Below are positions 6,658 through 14,309 of a stretch of DNA of 42,415 nucleotides, in pieces. The notes beneath the pieces were generated by a model. That model was not told where the DNA came from. It searched no databases and saw only the letters and a program-made list of their open reading frames with translations. The first letter of the stretch is position 1, and every line of letters begins with the position of its first letter. A program made the position numbers and the translations under genes. Origin of the DNA: Candidatus Alcyoniella australis (lineage in GTDB: Bacteria > Lernaellota > Lernaellaia > JAVCCG01 > Alcyoniellaceae); the NCBI GenBank assembly GCA_030765605.1, contig JAVCCG010000061.1, positions 1 through 42,415 on the forward strand, in the 5' to 3' direction.

Positions 6658-8172
6658 ATGTCCAAAGCGTTGCGCCTGTTAACGGTCCTGTTGTGCTTGC
6701 TGATCCCGCTGGCGTTGGTCGCCTGCGATCAGGGCGCCGATGACGACGACGACGACCAGACCGCGGATGACGACGACCTTGACGACGACGATTTGGACGA
6801 CGACGCGGACGACGACGACGATACGCAGGACCCCGACTGGGATTTCATTGTCGACGAACAGGGGCGCGCGCTGATCTTGCACGGCTGCAACTTCGACGGC
6901 GGGGCCAAGTGGAACGCGGGCCTGCCGCCCCAAGGGGTCGAGCAGACGCAGAGCCTGTTTGGCGATTGGGGCTTCAACTTCGCGCGCTACTTAATTTTCC
7001 GGGCCGAGATCGACCCCGAGCCCGGCGTCTACAACGAGGACTATCTGGGCCAGGTCGAGACGCGGCTGGACTGGCTGGAGCAGGCCGGCATCCGCGTGGT
7101 GCTCGACATGCACCAGGACGTCTGGGGACCGGAGTTCCACAGCGGCGGCTCCGACGGCGCGCCGCCCTGGGCCACGATCACCGACGGAGTGCCGCACATC
7201 CCCTTTGCCCAGCTCCTCGGCGCCTGGGCCCTGGACTACCTCTCGCCCGCGGTGATGCGCGCCTTTGACAACTTCTGGGACTACGAGCTGCACCCCGAGC
7301 TGCAGGACCTCTACGCCGCAATGTGGGTCCACGTGGTGCAGCGCTTCAAGGATCACCCCAGCGTACTGGGCTACGACCTGATCAACGAGCCGTGGGAAGG
7401 GACCGGGATCTACAACCAGGGGCGCTTTGACCGCACCAAGTATTTCGAGTTCAACCAGCGGATGATCGACGCGATCCGCAGCGCGGACCAGGAGGGCTGG
7501 ATCTTCTACGAGCCGCGCGCCTTTGGCCCCAACCAGGGACTGCCATCGCATTTGCCCGCACTGGACGATCCGCGTCCCGGCGCGCAACGCCTGGCCTACT
7601 TCCCGCACATGTACTCGATCCTGGTCGAGCTTGAAGGCGGCTACGACCCGCTGCGCGATCCGATCCTCGAGGACTGGCCGCGCAACCGCACGATCGAGAG
7701 CGAGCTGCAGCGTGCGCCGCTGCTGGCCGGCGAATGGTCGTTGCTCACCTGGCCCGACCTGGAAAACCGCCTGCTGTTCAACGATGCGGCCCTGCGGATG
7801 TTCGAAAGCGCGACCTCGGGCTGGGCCTATTGGGATTGCGGCTCGTTCGAGCGCTCGCCGCTTGAGCTGCAAGAGCTGATCGCCTCGCCCTTTCCTCGCG
7901 CCGTGGCCGGTTGGCCCCTGGAGTACGGCTACGACCAAAGCGCGCGCGAGCTGAGCTTGACCTTTGAGGCGCGCGACAATGTCGAGGGACCGACCGAGAT
8001 CTATCTGCCGCTAAGCCGCTGCTGCCCTGACGGCTACGCAATCGAGGTCAGCGGCGTGGCGGAAGATGGCTGGCACAGCGAGTTTAACGACGATTCCCAA
8101 CTGCTCAGCATCTGGATCGATGAGACTTTTACCGAGGCCACAATCAGTATTTTTGCCGCACAGCCGCAGTAG
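6658..8172 (+). CDS. poly-Asp lipoprotein, GH5 endoglycoceramidase-like glycoside hydrolase
   Basis: 504 residues; ATG at 6658 with GGAGG 4 nt upstream. Lipobox LVAC puts the lipidated Cys at 23. Residues 28-55 are almost all Asp (runs of 3-6 broken by L, A, QT). The catalytic (beta/alpha)8 domain follows from about 60. Diagnostic of endoglycoceramidase-type GH5 are DMHQDVW, GAPPWA, a DNFWDY segment and RFKDHPSVLGYDLINEPWEG, with acid/base Glu at 244. The predicted nucleophile is Glu359 in LAGEWS. A beta-sandwich-like tail (about 425-504) resembles the C-terminal domain of these enzymes. The family cleaves the oligosaccharide-ceramide link of glycosphingolipids or related glycolipids. The product is predicted to be a membrane-anchored, possibly surface-exposed enzyme. 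The next gene is another Asp-tract hydrolase sharing an upstream block. Confidence 0.85.
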   Translation: MSKALRLLTVLLCLLIPLALVACDQGADDDDDDQTADDDDLDDDDLDDDADDDDDTQDPDWDFIVDEQGRALILHGCNFDGGAKWNAGLPPQGVEQTQSLFGDWGFNFARYLIFRAEIDPEPGVYNEDYLGQVETRLDWLEQAGIRVVLDMHQDVWGPEFHSGGSDGAPPWATITDGVPHIPFAQLLGAWALDYLSPAVMRAFDNFWDYELHPELQDLYAAMWVHVVQRFKDHPSVLGYDLINEPWEGTGIYNQGRFDRTKYFEFNQRMIDAIRSADQEGWIFYEPRAFGPNQGLPSHLPALDDPRPGAQRLAYFPHMYSILVELEGGYDPLRDPILEDWPRNRTIESELQRAPLLAGEWSLLTWPDLENRLLFNDAALRMFESATSGWAYWDCGSFERSPLELQELIASPFPRAVAGWPLEYGYDQSARELSLTFEARDNVEGPTEIYLPLSRCCPDGYAIEVSGVAEDGWHSEFNDDSQLLSIWIDETFTEATISIFAAQPQ

Positions 8173-8191
8173 CCGCCAGCCCAGGGTTACA

Positions 8192-8234
8192 ACAAGCCGG
8201 CTGGTGTTGCCCGCTGCCAGGGTGACAATCGATC
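8192..8234 (+). repeat. upstream block shared by the two poly-Asp glycoside hydrolase genes, copy 2
   Basis: ACAAGCCGGCTGGTGTTGC... to ...TGACAATCGATC, the counterpart of 6557-6602, ending 101 nt before the GTG at 8336. The two downstream genes are not close paralogues at the sequence level, so this non-coding similarity is not simply explained by recent gene duplication. Confidence 0.5.
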
Positions 8235-8335
8235 GGCAAATCGGGCACACGGTTGAAGCTCGCTTGGGAAAATTGCCTTTTGATTGGCGCAGGCGTAGCC
8301 TCAGTTGTATACATATTTCATCAGAGGTGCACGCC

Positions 8336-10018
8336 GTGAGAAAACGCTTTTTCACGTTTACCGCCCTGGCCTTCTCAGTTATCTGTGTCATCGGCATCGT
8401 GGCGTTCTGCTCTTGCGGGACTGATGATGACGACGACGCGGACGACGATGACGACGATCTTGACGACGACGCGGACGACGATGACGACGACGGTTTCCCC
8501 TGCGTCTGGGACCAGGTACGAGCAGGACATTGGGTGCATGCGGTGAACTTGCCGTGGGACAACTATGGCACCGACTTCGGAGAAAGCGCCTGGGGCTATC
8601 GCGGATTGGCAAACCAGGGGCCTGCCGGATGGCGCTGCAAACACGACGACGACAGCCAAGGGTGTGCGAGTTTGGATTGGAACGACGGGAAGCTCGTGGT
8701 GAACTTGAGCTTGAATGCCTCAGATCAGCTCAGATCGAATGCAATAACTTACTATTGTTTTGAGGAATCGGCGGCTTTGCCCTCGGAGGGGACGATCGAC
8801 CTTCGCGGAAAAACAGTTGCCGCCCAGGCAAGCTTTCCTGCCGGAAGCCAGGGGCCCTCATCCGCTCCCAACGAAGTAGTCCTCTTTCTCCAGGACATCA
8901 ACTGGAATTGGGGACAGAGCGCGCCGCAGAACATCGTGCCGGGCGACATGACGTTGAGCGTCGTGCCCGACACCCTGCCGGATTTCGATGAGACGCAGGT
9001 CCGCTGCATCGGCATCAGCATGACTACCAACGACGAGGCGCCGGATGATTACACTTATGACGGCTCCTTCACCGTCGATTACGTGCAGTCGCCGCCCGAG
9101 ATAAACTTCCCCTACGACACCGCCCATACGCGCACAGAAGATGAACTGCTGGACATCGCGGGCCTCGGGGCCACGGCGACCCGCGTATGGCTTTTCGCCG
9201 ACGGCCGATCAGGACTGGCATTCGATCCGGCCAGCGGAGAGGTCAGCGGCCTTAATCAGTTTTTTAAAGATGATTTCGACGAACTGATACGTCTGGCTGA
9301 TTCAAGCCGGCTATATCTGATCGTCGTGCTGTTTGACTTCCTGATGGGCGGCTCGTCCCCGGTGGAGGAGCCGGGAATCTTCGGCCACGCGGACCTGATC
9401 ACCGACCCGGCCAAGCGCGATTCCCTGATCGGGAATGCGCTGATCCCGCTCTTTGAGGAGTACGGCGATCGGTGCGAAATATTGTCGTGGGAACTGATGA
9501 ATGAGCCCGAATGGCTGTTGATCAACGATCCCGACCACGTGACGATCCTCGCGGGAAAGAGGCCGTCCGAGATCGCCACCGGCGGCGCGGCCACCTTCGA
9601 CCAGATGACCGAGTTTTTCAACGCTGTTCTTGAGGCATACCAGACCGCCGTGCCCGGCGGGCAACAGCTTTTCACCGTGGGAAGCGCCAGCGAACAATGG
9701 GCCGATCAGTGGTACGAGGCGCTGAACATGGATCTCGGTCAATTCCATTTCTGGAACGGTCCCGCACAGATCGACGAAGGTCTGAGCTTCGATTTCACGC
9801 CGCCGATCGCCGGCGTGCCCAACATCATGGGCGAGTTCAGCTCAGAGGCCGATTGCTGCGAAATACTGGAATCCGCCCTTGAGCTGGATTACTCGGGAGC
9901 CTGGCCCTGGGCCTATCGATCCAAGGACGAATCGAGCTTCCGCATGCTGGGCGACGATTGCCGCGAGTGCATGCAGCAGTTTGCAGAGGAACATCCCGAA
10001 ACGGTTCGCTTCGAATAG
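8336..10018 (+). CDS. poly-Asp lipoprotein, CBM-like plus GH5-type cellulase/mannanase-like protein
   Basis: 560 residues, GTG start at 8336 with AGAGG about 8 nt upstream; no ATG begins near the signal sequence. KR-rich N-terminus, hydrophobic core, then FCSC, with the lipidated Cys most likely at 27. Residues ~30-52 are Asp runs. A beta-sandwich region (about 60-250; WDNYGTDFG..., LVVNLSLNAS, KTVAAQASFPAG, EVVLFLQDINWNWG) looks like a carbohydrate-binding domain of the CBM11/CIA30 sort. The barrel follows (about 255-555), with ELMNEPEW (acid/base Glu390) and IMGEFSS (nucleophile Glu500), the clan GH-A pattern. The exact GH family is uncertain; GH5 is the best guess. The substrate is probably a beta-linked polysaccharide. 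It is probably expressed with or alongside the preceding gene. Confidence 0.7.
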   Translation: MRKRFFTFTALAFSVICVIGIVAFCSCGTDDDDDADDDDDDLDDDADDDDDDGFPCVWDQVRAGHWVHAVNLPWDNYGTDFGESAWGYRGLANQGPAGWRCKHDDDSQGCASLDWNDGKLVVNLSLNASDQLRSNAITYYCFEESAALPSEGTIDLRGKTVAAQASFPAGSQGPSSAPNEVVLFLQDINWNWGQSAPQNIVPGDMTLSVVPDTLPDFDETQVRCIGISMTTNDEAPDDYTYDGSFTVDYVQSPPEINFPYDTAHTRTEDELLDIAGLGATATRVWLFADGRSGLAFDPASGEVSGLNQFFKDDFDELIRLADSSRLYLIVVLFDFLMGGSSPVEEPGIFGHADLITDPAKRDSLIGNALIPLFEEYGDRCEILSWELMNEPEWLLINDPDHVTILAGKRPSEIATGGAATFDQMTEFFNAVLEAYQTAVPGGQQLFTVGSASEQWADQWYEALNMDLGQFHFWNGPAQIDEGLSFDFTPPIAGVPNIMGEFSSEADCCEILESALELDYSGAWPWAYRSKDESSFRMLGDDCRECMQQFAEEHPETVRFE

Positions 10019-10927: not shown

Positions 10928-11632
10928 TCAGCCGCCGAGGATTTGCGGGTTGAACGCCAGCACCACGCTGTTGCACAGCCCGTGGTAGAGGCCCGCGCCG
11001 AATACGCTGCCCGTGCGCTTGCGCATCCAGGCGAAGGCCAGTCCGGGCACAAAGGTGGCGACCGTGGCCGGGTTGAACGTGATCGCCAAATGCGCCAGGG
11101 CGAACAGCGCGGCGCTGAGCCAGACGTCCGGCCCGATCCGAACCCCGAGCAGCGTCGGCCCGCGATGGCCCCAACGCCGGGTCAGCGGGCTCTGAATCCA
11201 GCCGCGAAAAAAAATCTCCTCGGGCACGCCGATCACCAGGATCATCAGCGTCACACCTCGCACGTAACTCCAATCGAGACGCGCGGTCACGTGGTGATCC
11301 ATGATCAACCCGAACCAGACCACGTAGAGCACAACGAACAGCGGCAGCGTGGCCAGGGCGAACAGCAGCGAGACTTTCAGATCGTCGCGCCAACGATCGA
11401 GGCGCAGGCCGAAATCCTCCGGCCGTTGGCGGCAGAGGCGTATCAGCAGCAGCGGCAGATAGATCAGCAGCACGACCTTGCCCACCGCCGCCAAATCCGC
11501 GGTGATGCCCGGCAGGCGACGTGCCGCGTTGAGCGCTAAGAAGGCCACAATCAGCGCCGCCAGGCTGGCCAGTAGTTGCCGAATGGACGGCCGTAACGCG
11601 GCCTGTTGTTCGATGGAATGCTGTCGGGACAT
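10928..11632 (-). CDS. CPBP-family intramembrane glutamic protease
   Basis: 234 residues with about seven hydrophobic segments. The three conserved motifs of the CAAX-protease/bacteriocin-processing (CPBP, Abi) family are complete: VPEEIFFRGW (EExxxR), FALAHL (FxxxH) and YHGLCNS (HxxxN/D). The pair of Glu plus His is the proposed catalytic site inside the membrane. In bacteria such proteins cleave membrane-bound peptides; in myxobacteria some act as sorting proteases on C-terminal anchors. No substrate is encoded next to it. The start at 11632 has no obvious SD. It is divergent from the TPR/peptide/radical SAM cassette, with 94 bp between them, so the two may share a control region. Confidence 0.85.
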   Translation of the reverse strand: MSRQHSIEQQAALRPSIRQLLASLAALIVAFLALNAARRLPGITADLAAVGKVVLLIYLPLLLIRLCRQRPEDFGLRLDRWRDDLKVSLLFALATLPLFVVLYVVWFGLIMDHHVTARLDWSYVRGVTLMILVIGVPEEIFFRGWIQSPLTRRWGHRGPTLLGVRIGPDVWLSAALFALAHLAITFNPATVATFVPGLAFAWMRKRTGSVFGAGLYHGLCNSVVLAFNPQILGG

Positions 11633-11726: not shown

Positions 11727-12902
11727 GTGAAATCGCTTAAGCCGATCCTAGTCCTGGCCTTGATTGCGACGCTTGTCAGCGTTGCGGCGGCGGCCGATCA
11801 GACCGCCGCGGAGCTGCAGCGCGAGGGCGTACGCGCGGCGCGGCAGGGCGATCCGCAGCTCGGCGCACAGCTGCTCGAGCGTTGCGTCGAACTCTACCCG
11901 GACTACCGCAACCTGGACTACGTGCTCTACAACCTGGGCGACGTCTACGAGAACGAACTGTTCGATTTCGTGCGCGCATGCGACATCTATAAAGAACTGA
12001 TCGAGCGCTTCCCCTCCAGCCGTTGGGCGCTGCGCGGCCGCAACCGCCTTGAGCAACTCGAGGAGAACGACCTGTACAGCGATTCCGAGCCGCTGGCCCT
12101 GCTCAAATCGATCCGCCGCGACTACCGCGACCTGGGACGCGATCGCGTGGTCGAGCAGTACCTGACCCTGCTGCACGATTTCCCGCTGTTCAGCAAGCGC
12201 GACGAGGCGCTGTTCGGCTTGGCCCAGGAATACGAGCTGCGCGCATTGCCCGAGGACGACGAGCGCGAGTACCTCAAGGCCCTCGAGATGTACCGCCGGC
12301 TGGTGGAGGAGAAGCCGGGCAGCGATTTGGCGTTTGTCGCGCTCAAGCAATCGGGCGACATCCTGCTCGAGCTCAACCGCTTTGACGAGGCGCGGCAGGA
12401 GTATGCGCGGATGGCGTCCTATCGCGGCGAGGACGGCGCGAACGCGGCGCGGTTCCTCTCGCTGGAGGTCGACAAGTACATACGATTGCGCAACCTGTAC
12501 TTGGTCTGCCTGGGATTAATCGCCGCCCTAAGCGCACTGCTGATCAAGCGCGTGCGTTGGTCGTCCCTTGGCCGCGACCGGGTGCTGCGCGCACTGATCG
12601 AGCCGGGCCTGCTGCTGCTGGCTTCCATCGGCGGGGCCTGGTACTTGCTCTATCACGACCGCCCCGTACGCTACCTGTTTTGCATGCTGTTGCTGATGCT
12701 CGGCTTCGCTGTCACACTATTTTGTAACGCGCTGTACATCGGCACACGCCGCCTGAGTGCTATGCAGATACTGTTTCAGGCAGTGGTGGTGATGTTACTT
12801 GTAACGGCAGTGATCTACGCGGTCTTTTATGGACTGGGACTGATGTCGATTACGATTCAGACTTTGCAGTCGCACTACTACATCATCAGCAGGGGAGGCT
12901 GA
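11727..12902 (+). CDS. TPR membrane protein, first gene of radical SAM cassette
   Basis: 391 residues, GTG start at 11727 (weak SD). A signal peptide (VKSLKPILVLALIATLVSVAAA) is followed by helical repeats from ~25 to ~250 that look like TPRs: a QLGAQLLERCVELYPDY...YNLGDVYENELFDFVRACDIYKELIERFPSSRWA block and ALEMYRRLVEEKPGSDLAFVALKQSGDILLELNRFDEARQEY. Residues ~260-385 contain four hydrophobic helices. Expected topology: periplasmic TPR platform tied to the inner membrane by a C-terminal helix bundle. No enzyme motif is visible. The stop is 2 nt before the GTG of the 77-residue peptide gene, and the strong SD of that gene (GGGGAGG) lies within the last codons here, so the two are co-translated. 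Confidence 0.65.
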   Translation: MKSLKPILVLALIATLVSVAAAADQTAAELQREGVRAARQGDPQLGAQLLERCVELYPDYRNLDYVLYNLGDVYENELFDFVRACDIYKELIERFPSSRWALRGRNRLEQLEENDLYSDSEPLALLKSIRRDYRDLGRDRVVEQYLTLLHDFPLFSKRDEALFGLAQEYELRALPEDDEREYLKALEMYRRLVEEKPGSDLAFVALKQSGDILLELNRFDEARQEYARMASYRGEDGANAARFLSLEVDKYIRLRNLYLVCLGLIAALSALLIKRVRWSSLGRDRVLRALIEPGLLLLASIGGAWYLLYHDRPVRYLFCMLLLMLGFAVTLFCNALYIGTRRLSAMQILFQAVVVMLLVTAVIYAVFYGLGLMSITIQTLQSHYYIISRGG

Positions 12903-12904
12903 AA

Positions 12905-13138
12905 GTGAGCAGCGCCGATCCCTTCCAGATTCCGACTCCCGAGCCGGGCATGCGTGGTCGAATACTCAAAGTCAAGATCGGGGTCAATCCCAACTCGAGT
13001 TCCCTGGGAACCGATTTGCAGGTGATCCTCTTCGGCGCTACGGCCCTGGGCCTTCTGACCACCTTCCTCTCTACGGCAATCAGAATCTGGCGCAAGCCCA
13101 AAGTGCAGCCGGAAACGGGGAAGCAAGATGGAAAATGA
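12905..13138 (+). CDS. 77-residue single-span peptide between TPR protein and radical SAM enzyme
   Basis: GTG start at 12905 with GGGGAGG 6 nt upstream. No Cys. Order: a Pro-rich N-terminus (DPFQIPTPEPGMRG), a short basic beta-like stretch (RILKVKIGV), an NPNSSSLGTD motif at about residues 28-37, one hydrophobic helix (VILFGATALGLLTTFLSTAI), then a basic tail (RIWRKPK...). The positive-inside rule predicts N-terminus out and C-terminus in. I do not recognise a family. The last 11 nt overlap the radical SAM gene. Small size, strong RBS and coupling to a SPASM enzyme make it a candidate modified peptide, but a structural membrane subunit is equally possible, and most known precursors lack a C-terminal span. 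Confidence 0.6.
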   Translation: MSSADPFQIPTPEPGMRGRILKVKIGVNPNSSSLGTDLQVILFGATALGLLTTFLSTAIRIWRKPKVQPETGKQDGK

Positions 13139-14309
13139 GCGCAAGATCATCCCCTACCGCTTCGAGCACTTCGGCGGCATTTTGCACCTGGAGCATCCCA
13201 GCTCGCTGATCTGGGTCGACAAGGACTACATGCGTTCGCTGGGTTTCGAACACTCGCCGCTGTGGGACATCGACCGGCCCTATCTCTGCGCTCCGACCGA
13301 GGTTCACCTGAGCGTCACCGGCCGCTGCTCAGCCGGCTGCGTGGGCTGCTACATGGACGCGCGGCCCGACTTCGAGGGCGATCTGGACCTCGAGCAAATG
13401 CGCAAGGTGATCGACACCCTGGCCGACATGCGCGTGTTCCATCTGGCAATGGGCGGCGGCGAGAGTTTCGAGTGCGAACACTTCATCGAGCTGGCACGCC
13501 ACGCGCGCCAACGCGGCATGGTGCCCAACGTCACCACCAACGGCATGCTGATCGACGAACACAACGCCGAACTCTCGCGGGTCTTCGGCCAGATCAACGT
13601 CAGCGTCGACGGCGTGGAGCAGGTCTTCACCAGCTGCCGCGGACACGATGGATTCGCCCGCGCCGACCGCGCCATCAACGCGCTGCGCCGCGCCGGCTGC
13701 AGGGTGGGCATCAACACCGTGGTCTCGCGCCGCAACTTCGACCACCTGGAACAACTGATCCGCTATGCCCACGACCAGCAGGTGCTCGAGGTCGAGCTGC
13801 TGCGCTTCAAGCCCGCGGGCCGCGGCTGCGACGTGTTCAACGACTTCGACCTCACGCCGCAACAGGCGCGGGATTTCTACCCGCTGATCACCTCCCTGGC
13901 CCGGCGCCACAACGTCTGGATCAAACTCGACTGCTCGTTCACGCCGCTGGTCTGCTATCACCAGCCCGATCCGGAACGGATGGACTTCTTTGCGGTCAAC
14001 GGCTGCGAGGCGGGCAACATGCTGATGGGCGTGCGCTCCGACGGCCAGGTCTCGGCTTGCAGCTTCTCCCAAAGCGAGCCGCACGATGTGCTCAAGATGA
14101 GCAGCTGGTGGAAAGACGCCGCCTCGTTCAGCGACTTCCGCCTATGGGACAAGGCCGCGGTGCCCGAGCCCTGCGCGAGCTGCCGCTATCTGCGAATCTG
14201 CCGCGGCGGTTGCCACCCGGTGGCCCAATTCGTCTACGGCGATTTTTCCATGCCCGACCCGGGATGCCCCACGGTTCAAGAGTATATGGGCAGCCCGATC
14301 ATCCACTAA
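13128..14309 (+). CDS. radical SAM/SPASM-domain protein
   Basis: 393 residues; ATG at 13128 overlaps the preceding gene by 11 nt, with GGGGA about 6 nt upstream. A ~50-residue N-terminal region precedes the core. The radical SAM 4Fe-4S motif CSAGCVGC (Cys67, 71, 74) is followed by Tyr, and MGGGESFE is the SAM-contacting GGE motif. The C-terminal part has a SPASM-type Cys set: CEAG...VSACSFS, then CASCRYLRICRGGC and a final GCP. SPASM enzymes commonly modify ribosomal peptides or proteins or act in cofactor assembly. The short overlapping upstream gene is the obvious candidate partner. The cassette order TPR/TM - small span - rSAM ends here; a perfect 7-bp hairpin follows the stop. The reaction cannot be predicted. 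Confidence 0.8.
   Translation: MENERKIIPYRFEHFGGILHLEHPSSLIWVDKDYMRSLGFEHSPLWDIDRPYLCAPTEVHLSVTGRCSAGCVGCYMDARPDFEGDLDLEQMRKVIDTLADMRVFHLAMGGGESFECEHFIELARHARQRGMVPNVTTNGMLIDEHNAELSRVFGQINVSVDGVEQVFTSCRGHDGFARADRAINALRRAGCRVGINTVVSRRNFDHLEQLIRYAHDQQVLEVELLRFKPAGRGCDVFNDFDLTPQQARDFYPLITSLARRHNVWIKLDCSFTPLVCYHQPDPERMDFFAVNGCEAGNMLMGVRSDGQVSACSFSQSEPHDVLKMSSWWKDAASFSDFRLWDKAAVPEPCASCRYLRICRGGCHPVAQFVYGDFSMPDPGCPTVQEYMGSPIIH

Follow-up and report, generated by a model that had tools for sequence, protein, structure and literature searches.

The redox cofactors PQQ and mycofactocin are derived from invariant small peptides, each with its own dedicated radical SAM (rSAM) enzyme. SuiB, SkfB/CteB and EpeE make cross-links or D-residues in their peptides, and in the borosins the precursor is fused to its own methyltransferase. 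The cassette described here was found on a contig of Candidatus Alcyoniella australis, of which the whole stretch analysed (42,415 nucleotides) is termed the window. It encodes a TPR-membrane protein, a 77-residue peptide and an rSAM/SPASM enzyme.

The enzyme resembles SuiB (streptide synthase), SkfB and CteB in having a SPASM domain, a small peptide partner and a predicted fold that is similar over nearly its full length, and with SuiB and SkfB the likeness extends to the N-terminal domain. It differs from all three in that this domain is shorter, and in that its partner is a conserved single-span membrane protein that can be fused to the enzyme, rather than a variable secreted core. The mycofactocin maturase MftC (TIGR03962) provides the best NCBIfam model, and MftA is likewise a conserved small partner with an invariant core suggesting a fixed product. 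However, the window enzyme scores 153 bits against a cut-off of 265, and the window peptide lacks the MftA C-terminus, spans the membrane and is accompanied by other accessory genes. Similarly, the GeoRSP system of Geobacter combines an rSAM/SPASM enzyme with a small partner, and the present family also occurs in Geobacteraceae, but the enzyme reaches only 128 bits against a cut-off of 400 and the peptide matches no NCBIfam family. The score with PqqE of the PqqA/PqqE system is 79 bits, below the cut-off of 381.

The sulfatase-maturing anSME is also a SPASM enzyme of similar fold and accepts Ser or Cys, but its [SC]-x-[PA]-x-R context is absent here, where the motif is N-[SC]-S-[SA], and the partner is a short membrane peptide instead of a sulfatase. 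The window peptide lacks the Cys-containing core of sactipeptides and SCIFF, nor does its sequence contain the repeated His-x-Ser of the His-Xaa-Ser systems. As in the borosins, the peptide and its presumed modifying enzyme can form one protein; the chemistry and the enzyme family are different, and fused and separate forms coexist in one family. The first-pass annotation had recognized no named RiPP system in this cassette, and all NCBIfam scores do lie far under their cut-offs, including those of eight enzyme relatives. In the open-licence PubMed Central literature, nothing relevant was found for the motifs NPNSSS, PNCSS and ANCSS, and no relevant description of rSAM clusters with TPR or phosphoesterase genes. 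Thus, no named family fits either the peptide family or the enzyme subfamily, and both are undescribed in the open-licence literature searched.

Layout of the cassette and its enzyme

The positions of the features are collected in Table 1. The TPR and peptide genes are separated by two bases (AA), the peptide and enzyme genes overlap, and the Shine-Dalgarno sequence AGGGGAGG ends six bases 5' of the peptide GTG. Every part of the three-gene cassette read by the first-pass annotation is in place. The strength of this Shine-Dalgarno sequence favours GTG 12905 as the start of the peptide. Since relatives begin near MxRGRIL, ATG 12950 is a possible alternative.

Table 1. Features of the cassette and its divergent neighbour in the window.
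Feature	Position	Strand	Basis and details
Rce1-like (CPBP) membrane protease, divergent neighbour	10928..11632	-	Similarity; presence beside related cassettes
TPR-membrane protein gene	11727..12902	+	GTG 11727, stop TGA 12900-12902; ORF, TPR_6 match, hydrophobicity
Shine-Dalgarno sequence of peptide gene	12891..12898	+	Sequence
77-aa peptide gene, new family	12905..13138	+	GTG 12905, stop 13136-13138; relatives across phyla
Conserved peptide segment GVNPNSSSLG	12980..13009	+	Peptide comparisons
Single hydrophobic span of peptide, residues 41-59, Arg/Lys after	13025..13081	+	Hydrophobicity, charge count
11-base overlap of peptide stop and enzyme start	13128..13138	+	Sequence
Radical SAM/SPASM enzyme gene, discrete unnamed subfamily	13128..14309	+	ATG 13128; motifs, profiles, tree, model
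Enzyme N-terminal beta-beta-beta-alpha part, residues about 8-50	13149..13277	+	Conservation; fold alignment with SuiB and SkfB
CxxxCxxC radical SAM motif	13326..13349	+	Sequence; alignment of relatives
SPASM cysteine set, C293 to C380	14004..14267	+	Sequence; alignment of relatives

The enzyme contains the radical SAM motif C67xxxC71xxC74 and a full SPASM set, C293-x12-G-x4-C311, C349xxC352x5C358x3C362 and C380, which together correspond to the maturase hallmark CxxxCxxC plus CX9-15GX4C..CX2CX5CX3C..C. These cysteines, already noted in the first pass, are all invariant or at least 90% conserved among 33 relatives. An AlphaFold2 model of the enzyme (pLDDT 94, pTM 0.91) has SuiB as its nearest solved fold (Z 30.8, rmsd 3.3, 366 residues aligned, model residues 4-382), followed by SkfB and then by CteB, anSME, ChlB and PqqE. 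Z values were 25-31 for SuiB, SkfB and CteB, at 15-19% sequence identity, and 25 for anSME. Sequence profiles concur, pointing to PqqE, SkfB, SuiB and anSME. The enzyme N-terminus is modelled as three strands and a helix that align with the N-terminal parts of SuiB and SkfB and are shorter than a classical RRE; it may be a shortened RiPP-recognition-like element.

A conserved peptide family and its enzyme partner

The family motif, G-x-x-[PA]-N-[SC]-S-[SA]-x-G directly before one membrane helix, occurs once in the window when all six frames are considered. Neither the 77-residue peptide nor any of ten diverse relatives gave a match above cut-off in Pfam or NCBIfam. In the phylum of the window, six other genomes were available, and three of them contain four peptide relatives (E 1e-11 to 1e-13), with the same enzyme nearby each time. 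The gene order TPR-peptide-enzyme is kept in two of these three. The third carries a peptide-enzyme pair together with a second TPR-peptide pair (L010, 4301-10668), whose peptide follows the TPR protein and is followed in turn by a redoxin and a phosphoesterase, and thus connects the short operon type with the long one described below.

A scan for the pattern G[VYI]NPNSSS[LI] over 84,980 species, confirmed by tblastn, yielded 49 peptide loci outside the phylum of the window. These belong to Myxococcota, Geobacteraceae (including the cultured Geomesophilobacter sediminis), Desulfobacteraceae, Planctomycetota, Kiritimatiellota, Fibrobacterota, Raymondbacteria, Spirochaetes, Elusimicrobia, Bacteroidales and Clostridia bins, and the family ranges over about a dozen phyla. 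Nearly all of the scan peptides read G-[KR]-[IV]-L-x-[VI]-K-x-G-Y-N-P-N-S-S-S-[IL]-G ahead of a single hydrophobic helix, a uniformity that owes something to the search pattern itself. Peptides found without the pattern, by profile or beside the enzyme, retain G-x-x-[PA]-N-[SC]-S-[SA]-x-G, the invariant residues that an alignment of the family was expected to bring out. The NPNSSS segment singled out by the first-pass annotation is therefore conserved across the family, with the correction that Cys can replace the opening Ser of SSS; Ser and Cys interchange at exactly this one core position. Compared with the cores of most RiPPs, this one varies much less, and at several loci a single enzyme accompanies two peptides. 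By these comparisons, the small ORF belongs to a real conserved family, beyond chance.

The enzyme is indeed encoded next door in the window and in several genomes, but often it is encoded apart from the peptide. Adjacency was insufficient as a criterion because many Myxococcota peptides stand apart from the enzyme, and genome-wide co-occurrence was used in its place. The first sample comprised 237 genomes drawn evenly from one phylum around a Myxococcales bin. Before correction, the enzyme was counted in 42 genomes, the peptide in 43 and both in 34. This tally of 34/51 was too low because the peptide profile missed some NCSS peptides and the enzyme threshold missed fused forms. Almost all discordances disappeared when the loci were read individually, leaving 50 genomes with both partners, one with the enzyme alone, none with the peptide alone and 186 with neither, so that 50 of the 51 genomes with either partner carry both (Fisher p 7e-51, a value that ignores kinship and is illustrative since the genomes are related). 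In the sole enzyme-alone genome (G239), the rSAM gene lies 0.85 kb from a contig start. In a second, Planctomycetota-centred draw of 294 genomes, enzyme and peptide occur in the very same three.

Among 14 genomes without a family enzyme at the peptide locus, 13 hold one elsewhere (474-588 bits, other rSAM proteins there scoring at most 143 bits), the one without it being a bin of 2.7 Mb. The family enzyme is also present in 29 of 32 additional genomes with the peptide; of the three others, two have an enzyme truncated at a contig end and one is a bin of 1.5 Mb. A peptide widespread without its enzyme, the finding that would have spoken against the pairing, had no clear case in the two phylum samples. 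The reverse was seen in G003, a 99% complete genome of the window phylum, which has the enzyme at C117:7390-8556 and no peptide by profile or DNA pattern. It is the only clear orphan-enzyme genome seen (L090, L095). At one locus (L046, 5635-12686), peptide, redoxin and phosphoesterase genes are flanked by four rSAM proteins of other subfamilies; the family enzyme of that genome is found elsewhere, beside a second peptide pair (L096).

In one Myxococcota-side class of the first sampled phylum, the peptide motif, the hydrophobic segment and the rSAM enzyme are in one frame, at 30 of the 30 enzyme loci read. The peptide part forms the enzyme N-terminus, its motif takes the form G[HR][ASP][PAS]NCS[SA], and 69-185 residues separate it from CxxxCxxC. 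In one such gene (L127), an ATG at MIRRIRLG is the sole start codon close by, and it is preceded by GAGGAG. The TPR gene lies just upstream of many fused genes, and the window order therefore persists as TPR-[peptide-enzyme]. A model of a fused protein (pLDDT 95.3) has a strand at residues 4-7 just ahead of the motif, and its alignment with SuiB and SkfB begins near residue 37-41.

In a maximum-likelihood tree of the enzymes, unrooted and without outgroup rSAMs, those with Ser-type and Cys-type peptides are separated by one change (support 100/98), and fusion requires two changes. Enzyme lineage thus predicts the key residue of the peptide. The exchanging residue is the leading candidate for the modification site, although its exchange is one event on the tree. 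The near-perfect co-occurrence, the fusions and the matched enzyme and peptide subtypes support the peptide as the dedicated partner of one SPASM subfamily, and bear out the link that had first been drawn from the window alone.

Proposed modification of the peptide and alternatives

With family conservation, co-occurrence, fusions, a linked subtype change and the predicted enzyme fold all established computationally, the cassette probably represents a widespread and undescribed class of rSAM/SPASM peptide-modification systems, in which the peptide would be the substrate, would be retained in the membrane and would be used in the periplasm. The enzyme is postulated to recognize the peptide at its basic, hydrophobic N-terminal end (GRILxVK...), probably via the shortened recognition-like domain, and to act by SAM radical chemistry, with the SPASM Fe-S clusters, on the N-[S/C]-S segment next to it, the Ser/Cys being the most likely site. 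The strict invariance of the core is unlike the cores of antimicrobial RiPPs and, by analogy, closer to what is seen in PQQ and mycofactocin precursors. It is about an even question whether the product is a fixed, cofactor-like group at N-[S/C]-S of a one-helix protein, never released and serving an envelope redox or phosphoryl machine, with substrate and maturase merged in the one Myxococcota-side class. The family would then have the hallmark of PQQ and mycofactocin, yet be membrane-retained, spread over about a dozen phyla and fused to its enzyme in one lineage. If true, an operon of generically named envelope proteins would gain a function, and a maturase working on its own N-terminus would be shown.

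Several points count against modification of the peptide. With a fused substrate, the enzyme would have to modify its own N-terminal end, an uncommon arrangement. The recognition-like domain is short and is assigned from a fold alignment. The change from Ser to Cys is a single event on the tree, and the core invariance, the lack of a conserved peptidase or exporter in the cassette clusters and the orphan enzyme in G003 point the same way.

Two sub-cases of peptide modification differ in the product expected. A cross-link or D-residue within the motif (thioether, ether, C-C or epimer) can be proposed tentatively. The fold is nearest to SuiB, SkfB and CteB, and the flanking glycines and Pro-Asn suggest a turn, but the window peptide offers no Cys for a thioether, a single Cys being present only in the derived NCSS subtype, and across the family the core has no invariant aromatic, Lys or Trp of the kind used by known cross-linkers. 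Conversion of the first Ser/Cys to formylglycine or a similar oxidised group, which would give a membrane-anchored aldehyde, is rather unlikely. The swap of Ser and Cys at exactly one core position is that seen between Ser-type and Cys-type sulfatases, and anSME is among the nearest solved folds; against this, SuiB and SkfB are closer folds, the sulfatase context is missing and the Ser/Cys switch happened only once on the enzyme tree.

The chief rival to a substrate role is that the peptide brings the rSAM enzyme to the membrane, as an anchor or small subunit, and that another target (for example a lipid, a small molecule or the TPR protein) is modified. The in-frame fusions, which place peptide and helix at the enzyme N-terminus, fit a plain anchor equally well, and near-perfect co-occurrence suits a subunit as well as a substrate. 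However, an invariant N-[S/C]-S between two glycines is needless for anchoring, and peptide and enzyme genes are far apart in several genomes. In addition, one enzyme is accompanied by two different peptides at many loci, which suits substrates better than anchors, and the anchor role is accordingly judged improbable. Finally, that the neighbours are unrelated and the small ORF spurious or incidental, as its size and GTG start might suggest, is ruled out for practical purposes by cross-phylum conservation, the Shine-Dalgarno sequence, fusion and co-occurrence.

Neighbouring genes and membrane topology

Under the preferred reading of a modified peptide, the product would not be released as a natural product but held in the inner membrane by its one helix. 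The membrane tethering proposed by the first-pass annotation is supported by the one hydrophobic span. Among 59 separate peptides, Lys and Arg within 15 residues average 3.9 after the helix vs 0.9 before it, and the C-side is the richer in 49; in fused forms the bias is weaker, and in some it is reversed. An N-out/C-in orientation with a periplasmic motif is suggested by this charge bias and by the C-terminal position, in the fusions, of the rSAM domain, which must be cytoplasmic. Modification would then precede membrane insertion, and the modified segment would sit at the periplasmic surface.

The TPR protein has a signal-peptide-like start, a TPR_6 match (E 8e-12) and four further hydrophobic spans towards the C-terminus, and its relatives are found directly upstream of the peptide gene or the fused gene in many genomes. 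Because it has a signal peptide and appears mostly periplasmic, it is more likely to encounter the completed peptide on the outer side than to scaffold a cytoplasmic reaction. It may use or hold the modified segment, as may a redoxin, a phosphoesterase-glutaredoxin-like membrane protein and lipoproteins in other lineages, and the displayed group would be cofactor-like or structural, for envelope partners.

These other partners are encoded in long operons in Planctomycetota, Spirochaetota, Bacteroidales, Desulfobacteraceae and others. Such operons start with a TPR protein (weak match to a purple-acid-phosphatase N-domain), often a lipoprotein of ~270 aa, and peptide A. A ResA/TlpA-like redoxin, a calcineurin-type phosphoesterase and peptide B follow, and then a second TPR membrane protein, the rSAM enzyme and a DUF2950-like protein. 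The phosphoesterase has C-terminal glutaredoxin-like and membrane parts, a region with weak NCBIfam matches to glutaredoxin and an ArsG-type transporter and no Pfam call. The DUF2950-like membrane protein is the conserved last gene, downstream of the enzyme, at eight loci (L030, L040, L043-L045, L048, L055 and L056). Most of these partners seem to be exported or to lie in the membrane, in keeping with a role of the peptide at the periplasmic face. Some short ORFs in the long clusters, first grouped as rSAM, were rejected as such and are the ~270-aa lipoproteins.

The Rce1-like protease that diverges from the cassette in the window also adjoins it at L009 and L011, which represent two of the phylum's three other genomes with the peptide; at the remaining loci it was not found by similarity. 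It is possibly a lineage-specific accessory or processing enzyme outside the core. Farther upstream (8066-10018, + strand), the window contains a large ORF in which a lipoprotein-like signal is followed by an Asp-rich (D)n stretch and whose C-terminal part resembles a glycosidase, and a similar Asp-rich protein is encoded near the cassette in L009 (11987-13666).
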